This document shows positions 28,148-36,776 of a stretch of 64,000 nt of DNA, one piece after another. Below the pieces are notes generated by a model that was not told the origin of the DNA, made no database searches, and saw only the letters and a list, made by a program, of their open reading frames with translations. The DNA is from Candidatus Acidiferrales bacterium. GTDB taxonomy: Bacteria; Acidobacteriota; Terriglobia; Acidiferrales; UBA7541. The stretch is taken from contig DASYYH010000003.1 of the NCBI GenBank assembly GCA_035934015.1, positions 372,001 to 436,000 of the forward strand. Direction: 5' to 3'. The translations under genes and the position numbers were made by a program. Every line of letters begins with the position of its first letter. Position 1 is the stretch's first letter.

Positions 28148-29713
28148 TCATGGTTGTTTCGGCTGGCTAATCTTCTCGTTCGCCGCGACGTGGAATTTCT
28201 GGTAGCCGTAGTAATGGTCGATTTCGTCCGCGCGAACTGTTTTCAGCATCAAGAGCCTCGCTCCCACATGAATTTCATCGTAGGAAGGAAGCCAGACCTC
28301 GTTGTTCACAAGAGACTGTTCGAACTGAAACGCGGAGCCCTTCTGCAACGACGCCAAGATGCCTCCGATCCTCATTGAATTATCGAAGCGCGCTTCGAGG
28401 CGCACGACGTCCTGCGCCTGCGCATCCACCCAGACGGTCCCGACGAGGTCATAGATCAGCTTTTCGACGAGCTTCTTGGGCTTGAAATCGGGATTCGGAC
28501 CAAAATCGAAAACGACGACGTCCTGCCCCCGGAAACGTTCCCAGCGCGGATTGGTAAAGTGGGAGATCCGCAGGAAATCGGAGATGCCCACATCATCGTC
28601 GTTTTTCTTGGGTGGACTCGCGGCTTCTTTGTCGTAGCGGTCGATGCCTTTTTTGATGCGGTCGTCCTCCTTCTGTTGCTGAGCGGGATTGAGAGGCTTA
28701 CCGTCGACCTCCGTCTTGCGGTCAATTTCATGCCCGGCGATATAAGAAACCTGATAGAGAGTTGCGGTGCGCTTGGTGACCTGGCCCTTGCCATTTGTCT
28801 CGTCGTTCTCTTCGAGCTTCATGCAGGCGTAGTCCTTTTGGATTTCATCAATGTGTTTCTGATTTTTCTGAACAGCCGCAAGAAGCTGGGCCACGTCGGG
28901 CAGGGGTTTCCTGGAAAGATTTGGAAACTGGAATGAAGATGCATTCACGCTCGAATTCAGAGAGATGCGATCGAGGGAAACTTGAAACGTCCGGCCGCCT
29001 TGCTGGATTGTGAGCCGAAACGGTTCCATCACGCCTTGCACGGCGCGGTAATCCGCAAAATCGATTTCTTGCGCTCCGCCCGCGGAAGGCGCTTCGGCAA
29101 CTTTCGACAAACGCCCGGCCGGCTCCCGTTCTTTGCTTTCCGCAGGAGATACGCGCGCTGCATCGACAACTTCTTTCACAATGAGATGGCTTTTCTGGTC
29201 GAAAAAAACGCGGCGGGTTTCCCCGGGAGGAATGGAAAGCTCAACGACATCGGCGGACTGGCCGTTGACACTTTCCGTGTCGACAAACCGCGCCTGAATC
29301 TTTTGCTTCTTGTAGTTGGCCAGGGCGAAGTTCAAGTAGTGGCCGGTCGCCTCAGCGCGTTTTTCCTCCGCACCGAAAAAAGTATAGAGATTTCCGCTCC
29401 CCTGCTCGCCCCAGCAGGAACTTGTGTTGCAGGCTTCGGCGATGCGCTCCGTTCCGAAGACGATTTCGCGATAGAACTGGCCGGGCGCGGCGGTAATCAA
29501 AGTGAATTCGCCCGTCTCGGGGAGGTTGGATTCCCTGACGGTTCCCTCCCATAGAGACGAATGGATTTTTGCGAGCGCCTTTGCGCCTCCGGAAGCGCGG
29601 AGGGATTGCTGAATGATTTTGTCAGCGGACTGCGCGCAGCAAGGATTCGCGGCGATGAGGAAAATCGCGGCAGCAACGAGGGCATAAGTGAGGTGCGGAA
29701 TCGAGCACGGCAT
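28148..29713 (-). CDS. Exported protein with two LolA-like halves
   Basis: A 521-residue protein from ATG 29713. The frame is open much further upstream to 30433, but that part shows no protein-like sequence. A signal peptide ends at CCAQ. Residues 25-235 (ADKIIQQSLRASGGAKALAK, YLNFALANYKK, TESVNGQSADVVELSIPPG) resemble outer-membrane lipoprotein-sorting (LolA) folds. Residues from 275 (HIDEIQKDYACMKLEE, SHFTNPRWERFRGQDV, VWVDAQAQDVVRLEARF) look like a second, related beta half found in acidobacterial proteins of unknown role. It is probably periplasmic and binds lipid or another hydrophobic ligand. Two 80-bp elements lie upstream. Confidence 0.65.
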   Translation of the reverse strand: MPCSIPHLTYALVAAAIFLIAANPCCAQSADKIIQQSLRASGGAKALAKIHSSLWEGTVRESNLPETGEFTLITAAPGQFYREIVFGTERIAEACNTSSCWGEQGSGNLYTFFGAEEKRAEATGHYLNFALANYKKQKIQARFVDTESVNGQSADVVELSIPPGETRRVFFDQKSHLIVKEVVDAARVSPAESKEREPAGRLSKVAEAPSAGGAQEIDFADYRAVQGVMEPFRLTIQQGGRTFQVSLDRISLNSSVNASSFQFPNLSRKPLPDVAQLLAAVQKNQKHIDEIQKDYACMKLEENDETNGKGQVTKRTATLYQVSYIAGHEIDRKTEVDGKPLNPAQQQKEDDRIKKGIDRYDKEAASPPKKNDDDVGISDFLRISHFTNPRWERFRGQDVVVFDFGPNPDFKPKKLVEKLIYDLVGTVWVDAQAQDVVRLEARFDNSMRIGGILASLQKGSAFQFEQSLVNNEVWLPSYDEIHVGARLLMLKTVRADEIDHYYGYQKFHVAANEKISQPKQP

Positions 29714-29780
29714 TTCTCGAATTGGATGCGGAAGCGAAAAAAATTGCTTCAAGAAATGCCTGAGGAAGCAGTGAAATTCG

Positions 29781-29861
29781 TCCCGATTAGAAAGGCATGC
29801 CGGCGTTTGTTTTGTGTCAGTTACGGGAATCTCACTGGAGTTTTGTGTCCCGATTATAAAT
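29781..29861 (-). repeat. 80-bp element, copy 1 (upstream of the LolA-like gene)
   Basis: On the minus strand it runs from a TATAATCGGGACAC end to a TCTAATCGGGA end, with GTAACTGACACAAAACAAACG in the middle region. The TAATCG boxes are 28 and 29 bases from the central AACT. It is 68 bases before the ATG at 29713. Confidence 0.7.
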
Positions 29862-30306
29862 TCAGCTGGTCGGGCGTAAAGCCGGCGAGGGGGATTCGTT
29901 TCACTTACGAGAGAGCGGGACAAAGGACCCGCGAAAATTTGGCGATTAGGAATTGGAACGGGGCTTTGCTTTTTGTGAGTTACAAAAAATTCTAATTCCG
30001 GCGTGTCGCGATTAGAAATGGCACCGGCAACCCTCCGCACACTCTGATCGTTTCCTGCGTCAGGGCAAACAGGAGGGGACGTCGTGCCGTCTCTCTTCGA
30101 GTTATTTGCCGCAGCCATTTTGCCATCCAGGCGGTCAACGCACGCCTGAAACCACGCTAGCATGAAGGAAGGACGTGTGGGAAGGTGTAGTGGAAGTGGA
30201 TTCTCAGGTCCGATCGGCGATGGGTTCACGCATGGTGCGACAAGTTGTGCGCTGCGATAAAATCGTGCAGACATTCGCCGGCCGAGTTGCGCGGAGAGCA
30301 AACCGA
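29862..30306. other. Upstream region of the LolA-like gene
   Basis: Apart from the second 80-bp element (29940-30018), no gene was found in this 445-base stretch. The minus frame stays open through it but lacks signals or protein-like sequence. It separates the divergent gene at 30307. Confidence 0.5.
29940..30018 (-). repeat. 80-bp element, copy 2
   Basis: Second copy, 159 bases from the first. On the minus strand: TCTAATCGCGACACG at one end, then GTAACTCACAAAAAGCAAAG in the middle, CCTAATCGCC at the other end. Spacings between boxes are 27 and 29 bases. Confidence 0.7.
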
Positions 30307-31859: not shown

Positions 31860-32990
31860 TCATAAATTCCAGGAATCCAATTCGTCCGTTGACAGAACCC
31901 GGCCACTGCGATGCGCAGGACCGGCTGTCGCGTTGTGCATGCTCGACCAGCGGCCGGGGATGACGCAGCCGCACTTGGGACAGGCGCCATTTTTCAAAAG
32001 GTTGCGGCGAACGTCGTGCCAGGACCGTTCGATGAGAAGCGCGCGGCACTGCGGGCAATAGGTGTTTGCAGCATCCGTGAAAATATTGCCTTCGTAGACG
32101 TAATGCAGGCCGACGTCGAGGGCGATGTGGCGCGCGCGATGCAAAGTTTCCGGAGGCGTGCGCGGCTTGTCGCGGAGCTTGAAATCGGGATGAAACGCCG
32201 TGAAATGCAGCGGAACATCCGGGCCAAGATGCTCGAGGACCCATTCCGAGAGCTTGCGCGTTTCGTTCTCGTCGTCGTTGAGCGTGGGAATCATCAGATT
32301 AGTCAGCTCGAACCAGACGCTGGTTTCGTTTTTGAGGCGAAGGAGAGTTTCGAGCACGGGCGCGAGATGCGTCAGCGTAATTTTGCCGTAGAAATTTTCG
32401 GTAAAGGCTTTCAGGTCGACGTTGGCGGCGTCGATGAGGCCGTGGCCGTAGACGTCGGCGAACGCTTCGCGCGTGATGTAGCCGTTGGTCACCATGACGG
32501 TTTTCAAGCCGCGCGCGTGGGCGACGTTGCAGATGTCGATGACATATTCGGCCCAAATAGTGGGCTCGTTGTAGGTGAAAGCAATCGAAGGACAGCCATG
32601 GTGGACGGCGAGTTCGACGATTTGGTCGGGTTCGAGATGCGTCGAGTGAACCTGATCGCTGCGGGATTTCGAGATGTCCCAGTTCTGGCAAAAAAAGCAG
32701 CCCATGTTGCAGCCGGCAGTGCCCATAGAGAAAATTTTCGTGCCGGGAAGAAAATGATTGAGCGGCTTTTTCTCGATGGGATCGATCTGAAGGGCGGCGG
32801 GAGAAGCATAGCCGAGGCTGTAGAGCTTTCCGCCTTGATTGACACGGATGAAACAGAAGCCAGCCTGGCCATCACCGATATGGCAATGGCGAGGACAAAG
32901 ATAACAATGGAGCTTGCCGTTTGGGGCAACGTCCCACCAGCGGGCTTCGTGGAGCGATCCAGGCGGTTGAAGAATTTCAAGTGCTGGCAC
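31860..32990 (-). CDS. amrS: AmmeMemoRadiSam radical SAM enzyme
   Basis: A 376-residue radical SAM protein. The [4Fe-4S] motif is CNMGCFFCQNWDISK (CxxxCxxC, about residues 94-101). Upstream is the family-specific LHCYLCPRHCHIGDGQAGFC with four Cys, and near the C-terminus TYCPQCRALLIERS and ACPKCGCVIPGRW form a rubredoxin-like zinc site. The enzyme belongs to the AmmeMemoRadiSam system, usually with AmmeMemo and MEMO proteins; its reaction is unknown. Neither partner is in the window. The start is GTG 32990. One 80-bp element lies 77 bases upstream of it. Confidence 0.9.
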   Translation of the reverse strand: MPALEILQPPGSLHEARWWDVAPNGKLHCYLCPRHCHIGDGQAGFCFIRVNQGGKLYSLGYASPAALQIDPIEKKPLNHFLPGTKIFSMGTAGCNMGCFFCQNWDISKSRSDQVHSTHLEPDQIVELAVHHGCPSIAFTYNEPTIWAEYVIDICNVAHARGLKTVMVTNGYITREAFADVYGHGLIDAANVDLKAFTENFYGKITLTHLAPVLETLLRLKNETSVWFELTNLMIPTLNDDENETRKLSEWVLEHLGPDVPLHFTAFHPDFKLRDKPRTPPETLHRARHIALDVGLHYVYEGNIFTDAANTYCPQCRALLIERSWHDVRRNLLKNGACPKCGCVIPGRWSSMHNATAGPAHRSGRVLSTDELDSWNL

Positions 32991-33066
32991 GATTTATGCT
33001 CGCCTTTCCGGCCATTATAACTCCGGCGTCCGAAATCGAACACTTCTCTGAAAAAAAACGCGAAAA

Positions 33067-33147
33067 ACTCGATTAGAAAAGAACTCGACCCTTTGTTTTG
33101 TGCAAGTTGTCTCAATTTCTAATTTCCCATAGAAACTCGATTAGAAT
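33067..33147 (-). repeat. 80-bp element, copy 3 (upstream of amrS)
   Basis: Third copy, 77 bases upstream of amrS. On the minus strand it has TTCTAATCGAGT at both ends, GAAATTAGAAATT inside, and ACAACTTGCACAAAACAAAGG in the centre. Box spacing is 29 and 29 bases. Confidence 0.7.
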
Positions 33148-33161
33148 TTTCAGTCGGCCCA

Positions 33162-33191
33162 TAAAAGCAAAAAGCCGCGTTTCCGCGGCTT
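33162..33191 (-). terminator. Rho-independent terminator-like hairpin
   Basis: On the minus strand AAGCCGCG, a four-base GAAA loop and CGCGGCTT are followed by TTTGCTTTT. It lies between the PEP-CTERM gene at 33610 and amrS, and would insulate amrS from upstream transcription. Confidence 0.7.
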
Positions 33192-33289
33192 GCCTCCTGC
33201 TAAGTCGTTCACAGCCAACACGCTGCGTCTGCAATTGCTTATATATCAGATAATTATAGGATTGTCAATGGAAATCGAGAAGTCATGAT

Positions 33290-33609: not shown

Positions 33610-34308
33610 CTAGGAATGCCCGAAGCGGCGGATGAACGGGCCGAGGCCGAGCAAGCCAGTGCCGAGAAGGAGCAACGAGGATGGCTCGGGAGTTGCGGAT
33701 GTAGACGTCCCGGTTACACTAACGTTATCCAATCCCAAGTCAAGCCCGCCAGGGAACTGCGCAGCCAAGTCCTCGAACTGCAAGGTCACATTGCTGTTGG
33801 TGGCCAGGAAGGTCATGCTTTCCCCTTGCCACGCCGTCCAATAACTACCGGAGGCCAGAGCTGTAAAATTCTGTGCCGAAGTCGACGAGCCGCTCAGAAA
33901 GGAAACCTGACCGACTGCACAGCAACCAACCTCCGAGGCAATATCAAAAGTGAGCATGTAAGAGTCGCCGACAACAAGTCCTGTCATGGTTTGCTGTATC
34001 GTGTAATCAGTGCCGGTACCGACTTCTCCAAGCACAAAAAACTGGTTACCAAAAGGGGTCGATGCGCCGAATGCGCCATTTGTGAGCCCCCAAGGGTAGG
34101 TACCATCGCTCGCCGGGATGAACCAGCCCGGTACGTCGTTGCCCACGAGACCCAATGTGTAGCTGCCGGGAGAGCCAAACGAACTCGCTTCGAAGCTGCC
34201 GTTAACGATAAATTGGTTTGCATGAGCTGGGGAGGCCAAAGCGCAGAAAAACAAAAACGCTACACCAGTTAGACGCGTTATGACGCGCAACAGAGAGTCT
34301 GTGGACAT
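33610..34308 (-). CDS. PEP-CTERM protein with a DUF642-like domain
   Basis: A 232-residue exported protein. GGAGG precedes ATG 34308. A signal peptide ends near AHA (residue 30). The mature domain (NQFIVNGSFEASSFG, PGWFIPASDG, NVTLQFEDLAAQ) is a beta sandwich of the kind seen in DUF642 and carbohydrate-binding proteins. The C-terminus is a sorting signal: TPEPSSLLLLGTGLLG, a hydrophobic helix and RRFG, recognised by an exosortase. No exosortase is in the window. It is probably placed on the cell surface or in the matrix. A pentanucleotide microsatellite lies 91 bases upstream. Confidence 0.85.
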   Translation of the reverse strand: MSTDSLLRVITRLTGVAFLFFCALASPAHANQFIVNGSFEASSFGSPGSYTLGLVGNDVPGWFIPASDGTYPWGLTNGAFGASTPFGNQFFVLGEVGTGTDYTIQQTMTGLVVGDSYMLTFDIASEVGCCAVGQVSFLSGSSTSAQNFTALASGSYWTAWQGESMTFLATNSNVTLQFEDLAAQFPGGLDLGLDNVSVTGTSTSATPEPSSLLLLGTGLLGLGPFIRRFGHS

Positions 34309-34398
34309 GACTTCCTCCGTATATTCCTAGATTCAAGAACTCAGGGCCGAAGGTCAAGCGTTTGATATGTTCGGAGGAGAGGCACGCAAGGGGCCAAA

Positions 34399-34426
34399 CT
34401 GTTCTGTTCTGTTCTGTTCTGTTCTG
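34399..34426. repeat. Pentanucleotide microsatellite (CTGTT)5
   Basis: Twenty-eight bases of perfect CTGTT repeats, about 5.6 units, lie upstream of the PEP-CTERM gene that starts at 34308. Such tracts are prone to slipped-strand changes. Confidence 0.9.
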
Positions 34427-34831
34427 AAAGGACTTAGCGCTAGCAGCAGAGCGGGCTTCTTAACGAGTTATGCAATTGCTTGCGGCCAAAATGCAGTAGA
34501 TTGCGACGACGAACAATTAGCTTGCAATGCGATGACACACAGTGCGGGTAAACCGGCCGCTACAAAAGCACACAGACTGAGAGCCTGCCTGCGGCAGGCA
34601 GGCCTGTGCCACCCAAAGCGGCGGCGGGCCACGGCACTCCAAAAGGGCAGCAGCAGGTTCCTCGTCGTCCCGACAAACTGCGTCGGGGCTCGCTCGGAAT
34701 GACAGACCAAGAGCCGAGGTGCCGTCGGACTAAGGCTGCTGGTCGCTTTCGCCGATACCCCGATAAATGCGATCGAGTCACACGGAGAAGCAGCCGCAGA
34801 GTCTCAAAAAACGAGACTCTGCGCTATACCC
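34427..34831. repeat. Intergenic mosaic of repeats, block B
   Basis: No gene is seen. It contains GCGGGTAAACCGGCCGCTACAAAAG-like sequence (about 34546-34567), the palindrome CCTGCCTGCGGCAGGCAGG (34583-34602), and a unit ending CTCGCTCGGAATGACA (34690-34701) of the type shared with blocks C and D. Confidence 0.7.
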
Positions 34832-35425
34832 TCAGTAGCGCGCGAAGCGGCGGATGAATGGGCCGAGGCCGAGCAAGCCGGTGCCGAGCAGCAGCAAGGA
34901 AGAGGGCTCAGGCGTGGGAATGTTGGCCCCAGGGTCGGCGATGATCACATTGGCAGAGGCCGTCTGAAAGACGGGCGCGCTGCAGTTCGGGCAAGTGTAT
35001 CCAATACTCAAACCAACTGTGTTGATGCCATAGTCCCCGTCGGTTTCGCCTACGTCCGAAGTAGAAAAATTCCAGTCGAAGCCGCAAGAGGCGCCCGAAG
35101 CAAGGCTAGACACAGCCAAGCAGGATCCTCCGAGCGAGTCGAAGGTGAGGGCCGTCGCGTCCGTAGGGTCTCCTGAGCCGGGCGACAAAGTCGCGTTACT
35201 CAAGAAGGCCTGACTATTGCCCGAAAAAGCAAAAATGGTGTTGTTGGTGTTGTTGGTTACGGTCCAATTGAGGGTAATCAAATTTCCTTCAGTGACGGTG
35301 AGCGGTCCTGGGTTGAGGGTTATGGTCACGCTACCTGCCGCGGCTGGACGAGGAGAGATAAAGAAAAAGAAAACTGCAACTCCGAACAGGTATGACGCCA
35401 GCCGAAGCAATCGTGTCCTGAGCAT
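34832..35425 (-). CDS. PEP-CTERM protein, tandem paralogue 1
   Basis: A 197-residue exported protein from ATG 35425, with AAGGAG upstream. A signal peptide is followed by AAGSVTITLNPGPLTVTEGN and ITLNWTVTNNTNNTIF. This strand-rich domain matches the neighbouring gene at 35436 closely. Pairs of Cys (SCLAV, SCGFDW and CPNC) suggest disulfides. The C-terminal PEP-CTERM signal TPEPSSLLLLGTGLLG ends in RRFARY. Probably the later member of a two-gene tandem duplication; the two genes are 10 bases apart. Surface-associated; specific role unknown. Confidence 0.85.
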   Translation of the reverse strand: MLRTRLLRLASYLFGVAVFFFFISPRPAAAGSVTITLNPGPLTVTEGNLITLNWTVTNNTNNTIFAFSGNSQAFLSNATLSPGSGDPTDATALTFDSLGGSCLAVSSLASGASCGFDWNFSTSDVGETDGDYGINTVGLSIGYTCPNCSAPVFQTASANVIIADPGANIPTPEPSSLLLLGTGLLGLGPFIRRFARY

Positions 35426-35435
35426 AGGTTTCTCC

Positions 35436-36074
35436 TTAGCTTGTGCGTGCCAAAAGACGAATGAGCGGCTCGAGACCCTTCGCGGCGAGCAGGCCGAGGA
35501 GGCCGGTACCGAGGAGGAGCAATGAGGAGGGCTCCGGTGTTGCGCTTGGGTCTGACGACCTGACGAAAGCCGAGGAGTTGACGGGCCTGAAATATCCGCC
35601 AGGAGTGTAGAAAGGGTCGGTATCGCCAAGACAATTTGGGCAATCGTACTCGAAGATTGCGATGACCTGGTCAATGGCGAAGTCCGAGTTTTCCTTTTCC
35701 CCGGTAGTTGAGCCCGCGGTAAAGGTGAACGAGAGAGTGCAGTTGGCACCGTTGCTCAGGCTCGACTCTGACGAACACGTTCCTGAGAAAATGCCGGTTG
35801 CGAAGTCAAGATCGTCAGACGAGTCGCCGGAAATTGAGACGCCCTGATAGCCGACGATGAACTGTGGCAGGCCGTCGCCGAAAATCGTTGAACCCGTGTT
35901 GTTGGTAACGGTGTAGTTGAGCGTAATGTTGTTGCCCTCAGTGACGGTGAGGGGGCCAGGGTTCAGTGTTATGGTGACATTGCCCGCGGAGGCGCGTCGC
36001 GGAGCCACGAAGGCACAGAGAACGACAAGGCTCAAAAATCCGACGACGAAGCGAATCGGCCCAAAGTTAGTCAT
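35436..36074 (-). CDS. PEP-CTERM protein, tandem paralogue 2
   Basis: A 212-residue exported protein from ATG 36074 (GGAG upstream; 36101 is a weaker start). Signal peptide, then AGNVTITLNPGPLTVTEGN and ITLNYTVTNNTGSTIF, nearly the same as the adjacent gene. CSSESSLSNGANC and CPNC again carry Cys pairs. The C-terminus TPEPSSLLLLGTGLLG is followed by LLAAKGLEPLIRLLART, a longer hydrophobic tail than in the other two PEP-CTERM genes. Likely co-transcribed with the gene at 34832. Processing needs an exosortase encoded elsewhere. Confidence 0.85.
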   Translation of the reverse strand: MTNFGPIRFVVGFLSLVVLCAFVAPRRASAGNVTITLNPGPLTVTEGNNITLNYTVTNNTGSTIFGDGLPQFIVGYQGVSISGDSSDDLDFATGIFSGTCSSESSLSNGANCTLSFTFTAGSTTGEKENSDFAIDQVIAIFEYDCPNCLGDTDPFYTPGGYFRPVNSSAFVRSSDPSATPEPSSLLLLGTGLLGLLAAKGLEPLIRLLARTS

Positions 36075-36776
36075 GAAACTTCTCCGTTGGTGGATGCGCA
36101 CAAAACACCTGTACGCGGACAGAACGCGAGCACGCTAGGAACCATATCCTATTCTGCTGTACGGAAACGGTTTAGCGAACGGATTAGGCCACGCAACTGC
36201 ATCGTTCTGCGGTCATGATGCACTAGCTTGCATAGTCAGGGATGAAAAGACGGCACAATGCAAATATCAAGACAGGTACCCCACCCTTCGCGCCTTCTTC
36301 ATGTTGGGCCGCATGCCGCATCCCGGGCGCGAAGGATGGGGCATTCGCCGCTTCCTCGCCTGCCTAGGCGGGCAAGTTCGGAATGACAATGAAAGTGCGC
36401 GGGGTAAAACTGCTGCGCGACTCGGGGAGTCGCGACGGGCGCAGCAAGCAGCGCCCCTACGAAGACGTTCCAGAAACTAGGTGACTTCCGGCGGGATGCG
36501 CGTATTGCTTGCGTCCCAAAGAATAAAGTAGAGAGCAGAGAGTCTCGCAGGACGCGATACGGCGCATCGTCCGCCCAGGCGGATAGACGCGGGCAGGGCC
36601 CTTCTTTTGTCAGGATAAACAAGCCCTGCCCTTACGAAAGTGAAAAGCAGATCCCTGCCTACGGCAGGCAAGACTCACCGGTCGGATAAGTCGGGACAAA
36701 AACCAACTGCAGATTCCTCGTCGTCGCACGCCGCTTCGCGGCGGGCAAAACACTCCTCGGAATGACAAAACAGGGC
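36075..36776. repeat. Intergenic mosaic of repeats, block C
   Basis: About 700 bases without a gene. It holds TACCCCACCC...GCGAAGGATGGGG (36279-36344), GGCGGGCAAGTTCGGAATGACA (36367-36388 region), hairpins followed by CTACGAAGA (36437-36466) and CTTACGAAAG (36591-36640), CTGCCTACGGCAGGCAAG (36654 area) and a GCAGATTCCTCGTCG...GGAATGACA unit (36709-36768). Confidence 0.75.

Follow-up and report, generated by a model that had tools for sequence, protein, structure and literature searches.

An 80-bp element found in three copies in the window (the whole 64,000-nucleotide stretch of DNA analysed here) belongs to a dispersed family with 59 sequence-model matches in its own 3.37-Mb genome, that of a soil acidobacterium of Candidatus Acidiferrales type, and we propose, with about even odds (a probability of roughly 0.5), that it is a clade-specific cis-regulatory cassette read by a putative clade-specific factor. 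The evidence comes from the invariance of its boxes, from the bases that its two direct repeats share, from its orientation towards genes and from its conservation at the same genes in different species and in two genera.

Three Copies of the Element in the Window

Pattern and profile searches of the window recovered the three copies at the positions where they had been predicted (Table 1). The pattern CGATTAG-N15-TTTGNTTTNTGNNAGTT, with up to 3 mismatches, has exactly these 3 matches in the window versus 0.02 expected by chance, and a profile derived from 56 copies, with the three window copies included, gives the same 3 matches and no others (E 5e-18 to 7e-17). The near-constant spacing announced by the original prediction is borne out, the distance from C' to A' being 67, 66, and 68 bases in copies 1, 2, and 3. 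As to the boxes, those described at the two ends and in the centre are there, but a third box, B' (ATTAGAA), had been overlooked. So had the matching bases that follow both A' and C', and so had the short transcript that precedes copy 3, together with its promoter. On the minus strand, the order is C' (TTCTAATCG), B', a core (GTAACTnACACAAAACAAA, which reads AACTnnCAnAAAnCAAA in the three window copies), and A' (TTCTAATCG again).

Table 1. Copies of the element and associated features in the window.
Feature	Position	Strand	Basis
Copy 1 (type GGACA)	29773..29862	-	pattern search; profile match E 7e-17
Copy 1, boxes	C' 29851-29859 (TTATAATCG); core 29806-29822; A' 29784-29792; B' absent	-	
Copy 2	29929..30021	-	pattern search; profile match E 5e-18
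Copy 2, boxes	C' 30009-30017; B' 29990-29996; core 29965-29981; A' 29943-29951 (TCCTAATCG)	-	
Copy 3 (type AGTTT)	33065..33149	-	pattern search; profile match E 1e-17
Copy 3, boxes	C' 33138-33146; B' 33117-33123; core 33092-33108; A' 33070-33078	-	
LolA-like gene, downstream of copies 1 and 2	28148..29714 (start approximate)	-	ORF and coding-score start
amrS-like gene, downstream of copy 3	31860..32990	-	ORF; orthologues across the family
TGCTAGCGT, possible extended -10 of an upstream promoter for copies 1 and 2	30154..30162	-	string match; by-eye reading across copies; weak
Terminator-like hairpin GCCGCGGAAACGCGGC with TTTTTGCTTTT tail, directly upstream of copy 3	33160..33189	-	string match, fold
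Promoter P1 of the short transcript, TTGACA-N17-TATATA	33240..33268	-	string match and promoter scoring
TATAATGG, possible -10 of a separate amrS promoter P2, between copy 3 and the gene	33012..33019	-	string match; sense-strand enrichment 17:2

Copies 1 and 2 stand in tandem, 159 bases from start to start, and A' of copy 1 begins about 70 bases upstream of the start of the LolA-like gene, whose N-terminal part has no NCBIfam match; the start of amrS lies 79 bases downstream of copy 3. Strings resembling TGCTAGCGT were seen by eye before copies of the element in other genomes, and the layout of copy 3, a terminator followed by the element, recurs in many other copies. Elsewhere in the window (33610-36101, minus strand), three neighbouring ORFs have PEP-CTERM-like ends (TPEPSSLLLLGTGLLGL...), which suggests a cluster of sorted secreted proteins.

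A Dispersed Family Restricted to One Acidobacterial Clade

The sequence-only model behind the 59 matches was built from the 56 copies and used at a threshold of E up to 0.01; 48 of these matches fall below E 1e-11. The genome has about 50-59 copies. Many of the copies lie 140-210 bp apart, in tandem arrays. A strict pattern occurs 30 times in this genome (G000) versus 0 times for its reversed control; it is present in all five genomes of the same genus, with 9-30 copies each, and, with fewer copies, in two further genera of the same family, genus g8 being among the genera that carry it. One has to keep in mind that the genomes besides G000 are fragmented drafts, and that the copies were gathered with patterns favouring intact boxes.

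Searched with the model, 299 genomes of the class gave matches in 22, namely those of the same genus, almost every sampled member of genus g3, and G007, G224, and G170 with one lone weak match each; per-genome counts in this survey are to be read as "at least", since apparently no more than 13 matches are listed for any genome. Apart from these lone weak matches, no copies were found in the 299 genomes outside three genera of the family. Pattern scans of genome and viral collections returned mostly chance matches, the full motif being found only in Acidobacteriota records (named Candidatus Acidiferrales, Terriglobia, and other Acidobacteriota MAGs) and in one IMG/VR contig. On this viral-classed contig (L333, IMGVR_UViG_3300031670_000408), a complete element with its promoter sits around position 500 of the locus, next to ORFs that are integrase-like and MerR-like by appearance; the contig may be a provirus edge or host DNA.

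Matched Direct Repeats and Recognition Types

When the 56 copies are aligned on their boxes, the boxes are almost invariant while the remaining sequence drifts. The bases that follow TTCTAATCG differ from copy to copy, and yet they agree between A' and C' of one copy, at a mean of 3.84 of 5 positions versus 1.87 after shuffling (shuffle maximum 2.24; 106 copies). These bases define recognition types: CGGAAA dominates in G004, GTACAA in G001, and GGTA in G002, and G000 and G003 have CTGATT, CCACA, AGTTT, and others. Several types are found side by side in one genome, a coexistence that a single factor does not explain and that counts against the regulatory cassette. A target-site duplication was considered as the origin of the matching bases and ruled out: copies of one type have them in common, conserved, and they therefore belong inside the element.

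A further inverted box, D', was seen by eye about 15-30 bases after A' in part of the copies, chiefly those of G002 and G004 but also a few of G000; where present it completes a hairpin with compensating bases, and other copies do without it. Low-complexity runs such as CAGTGGCGAGTGGCGAGTGATTAGCGA adjoin C' at several loci (L002, L023, L028, and G003 L053) and are apparently another intergenic repeat of these genomes.

RNA Structure and Coding Capacity

A structured leader RNA was one of the two functions originally suggested for the 80-bp element, and the search for a structure came back empty: RNAalifold, run on 59 and on 56 copies, predicted no pair, Rfam gave nothing over the element at gathering and at E-value thresholds, and the two 7-bp helices that could form are for the most part invariant and do not clearly covary more than shuffles do. 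The idea of an attenuator, in which C', B', A', and D' would fold the P1-derived leader into alternative hairpins and so switch termination or translation, has points in its favour: B' can pair with either C' or A', some copies have a hairpin completed by D', and a promoter, with a terminator or a leaderless mini-ORF in many copies, stands upstream. We nevertheless judge it improbable, given that neither pairing shows clear covariation or a consensus structure, that 9-12% of the cells in the possible pairings are unpaired, that B' is missing in some copies and D' in many, and that the terminator comes before, not after, the element. Structured RNA, made of a 5' hairpin and a terminator, does occur in many copies directly upstream of the element.

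Of 112 copies, 76 have one frame that stays open across the element, and stops occur in many copies; the open frame is a by-product of the boxes, which carry stops in only one frame. A protein-coding element was ruled out: one and the same DNA box falls in different frames from copy to copy, its translation being SNR in some and FLI in others. The element probably yields spurious predicted peptides (...SNR...TKQ...SNR...), and masking or annotating it is advisable. As no RNA structure is supported and the frame is non-coding, the conserved object is the sequence itself, most simply as double-stranded DNA, with an unstructured RNA site as a possible alternative.

The Upstream Unit: Promoter, Short RNA, and Mini-ORF

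Many copies form the end of a larger unit, in which a strong promoter is followed by a short RNA with a terminator or by a leaderless mini-ORF, and then by the element. The promoter, in many copies, consists of TTGAC with a TAnAnA hexamer 17 bases on, often with GTTAAC in the spacer, and sits on the strand of the element, some 110-225 bases ahead of the end of C'. Used alone as a query, this motif has 9 sites in G000, 16 in G004, 2 in G002, and 0 in three other genomes; at 13 of 13 inspected sites the element was found downstream on the same strand, including some copies that the element pattern had missed.

The stretch between promoter and element is of two kinds. The first, to which copy 3 belongs, is a short RNA in which a GGAG-like, purine-rich linker joins a 5' hairpin to a GC-rich terminator (four examples gave fold z-scores of -2.3 to -4.8); the second is a leaderless ORF of 22-24 codons ending in RGxRWxLLAA or similar, and in 11 copies its stop precedes the end of C' by 49 or 58 bases.

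Both kinds recur as families. The small-RNA-like gene is multi-copy (L015, L021, L007, L009, L013, L014, and L010, with copies in G002-G004, and 33160-33268 in the window), with the GTTAAC-spacer promoter, a variable self-complementary 5' hairpin, a GGAG-rich linker, and a GC terminator; it matches no Rfam family. The mini-ORFs (L001, L008, L016, L019; G003 L043, L083, L090, L092, L095, L101; G004 L067) start 8-12 bases after the -10 and keep their frame despite differences in length; they may encode a leader or signalling peptide. A smaller inserted repeat (GAAGCGCCGTAGC...GCGAAGGAGTTTCGC), at times with a second terminator, is found between the terminator and C' at L366, L347, and G003 L432.

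At orthologous loci (L013, G003 L088, and G002 L102), the leader upstream of C' is fully replaced while promoter, terminator, and element are retained. Such swaps, together with matching bases common to A' and C' as the partner sites of a recombinase would have, could be read as the trace of a site-specific recombination site, in a role comparable to that of integron attC, with the short transcription unit as cargo and the matching bases as crossover region. We hold this to be highly improbable: neither an excised form nor a recombinase was seen, a crossover joining A' to C' would delete no more than about 68 bp, and such a site would not be expected to favour the 5' side of genes.

Promoter-like sequence is enriched on the sense over the antisense strand both upstream of C' (35:8) and between A' and the gene (17:2), and hence, at some genes, the element appears to be followed by a promoter.

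Orientation towards Genes

With gene calls from a simple coding-score caller, in which genes and start codons are approximate, the copies of the window's own genome are intergenic, except for two that overlap a called gene. The start of the gene on the A' side faces the element in 43 of 52 cases in this genome (43:9, p 2e-6), a bias that holds when tandem copies are collapsed by hand (32:8, p 2e-4) and over 11 genomes (83:25), the gene on the opposite side being unbiased (48:47). The strand preference agrees with the original claim that these are not random repeats, and related genomes, too, carry copies upstream of genes. Two observations count against a regulatory cassette: about one-fifth of the copies are without a correctly oriented downstream gene, and a few lie just 34-60 bases from the start codon, which leaves little space for an intervening promoter.

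Many of the downstream genes are housekeeping genes (gyrA, alaS, argS, ligA, leuC, glyA, ffh, and amrS), often essential ones such as gyrA, alaS, and ligA; others are ychF, panB, ribBA, a YifB/ComM-like gene, a 3-hydroxybutyryl-CoA dehydrogenase gene, and the LolA-like gene. A metabolic regulon was ruled out, the downstream genes belonging to unrelated pathways; as they have no pathway in common, they suggest no signal either.

Conservation, Gain, and Loss

The element is present at leuC and at amrS in four species each and at three further genes in three species each, and it is shared across genera at glyA (G000, G004, and G045) and at ffh (G001 and G006). The amrS copy of G003 is of another type and has a different upstream gene before it; that of G001, about 570 bases upstream of amrS and apparently with a small gene in between, is a weaker case. 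No element was found at amrS of G004, nor at the LolA-like gene in either G002 or G004; that it can be dispensed with there counts against the regulatory cassette. The cassette is thus gained, lost, or exchanged, yet recurrent at the same genes.

In 17 orthologous copies compared between the close species G000 and G003, the two agree at 264 of 265 sites in C' and B' versus 551 of 611 other interior sites (p 7e-9), from which we conclude that the boxes are under purifying selection; A' and most of the core are near-perfect too, but they lie within the selection pattern and were excluded as evidence.

The main rival to the regulatory reading is a non-autonomous mobile repeat like BOX or Correia elements, mainly parasitic, moved by a transposase acting in trans, carrying an outward promoter and keeping its boxes for transposition. 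Tens of intergenic copies, tandem arrays, expanded types specific to species, presence/absence differences at the same gene, and a promoter carried as in Correia elements (PMC10969869) all speak for it. We regard it as possible, though on the unlikely side: the 80-bp element has direct repeats at its ends (C' and A') in place of the terminal inverted repeats of a MITE, no transposase or target-site duplication was found, and the strong orientation towards genes, at the same genes in different species and genera, is at odds with it; moreover, box conservation in orthologous copies that have not moved would need selection on the site or very recent replacement. The comparison of empty sites in G002, G003, and G004 gave no alignable junction that would place an empty site or the ends of the larger unit at base level. 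The two readings overlap, as a repeat family can spread and then stay where it is useful.

A Possible Mode of Action

The regulator-binding array, the other function originally suggested, fits what was found, namely invariant boxes at fixed spacing, matched direct repeats, and purifying selection. Repeated conserved boxes do stand at fixed spacing in 5' intergenic regions, and C' and B' are under purifying selection at orthologous sites, as in an array. A putative trans-acting factor would read TTCTAATCG and the next 3-5 bases at both direct repeats, which stand 66-69 bp apart, and would be assisted in this by B', an inverted half-site, and by the A/C-rich core. It would most likely bind double-stranded DNA and so set the expression of the downstream gene, either at the gene's own promoter P2 or through control of read-through from P1. 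Cassettes would spread and swap between loci by recombination, an exchange that we infer because orthologous genes keep a cassette that is often of a different type.

A bolder version, which we find rather doubtful, is that one factor or a paralogous set controls dozens of housekeeping genes through such portable, exchanged cassettes, with the types changing together as regulator and sites co-evolve genome-wide. If the element is regulatory, it offers a testable case, inside a single bacterial family, of a network of housekeeping genes that came under a common, portable control cassette whose recognition types shift in concert; it would also be a handle on gene regulation in the abundant, mostly uncultured soil Acidobacteriota.

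Comparison with Known Systems

Regulator-binding arrays are operators with multiple spaced half-sites. The element resembles them in its repeated boxes, its fixed spacing, its place in 5' regions, and its conservation at the same genes across species; it differs in that the bases beside the constant box vary between types in one genome, that copies are linked to a promoter and a short transcript, and that its factor is putative.

Among dispersed repeats, the BOX elements of Streptococcus pneumoniae are built of boxA-boxB-boxC modules, their transcripts are predicted to fold extensively, and they are able to affect the expression of neighbouring genes (PMC3049150). The likeness is one of layout, both being modular, intergenic, many-copy repeats near genes (here dispersed modules in tandem arrays, with 59 matches); unlike BOX, the element has no supported structure, is strongly oriented towards genes, and has boxes that are matched direct repeats. 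The Correia elements of Neisseria are MITEs with terminal inverted repeats that carry sigma70-type promoters (PMC10969869), and our family, too, is a small dispersed repeat, mostly upstream of genes, with sigma70-type promoters, although the 80-bp element ends in direct repeats and the promoter lies outside it. REPs are 20-40-bp palindromes, and REP/BIME repeats go with RAYT transposases (PMC2817692, PMC3733652); compared by repeat layout alone, they share with our family the dispersed, extragenic, clustered arrangement and differ from its 80-bp, direct-repeat plan.

Our searches of the open-licence literature for the boxes and for acidobacterial intergenic repeats found no published description of the element. 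On the best reading, the cassette would have spread like BOX or Correia repeats; it looks like a previously undescribed control cassette.
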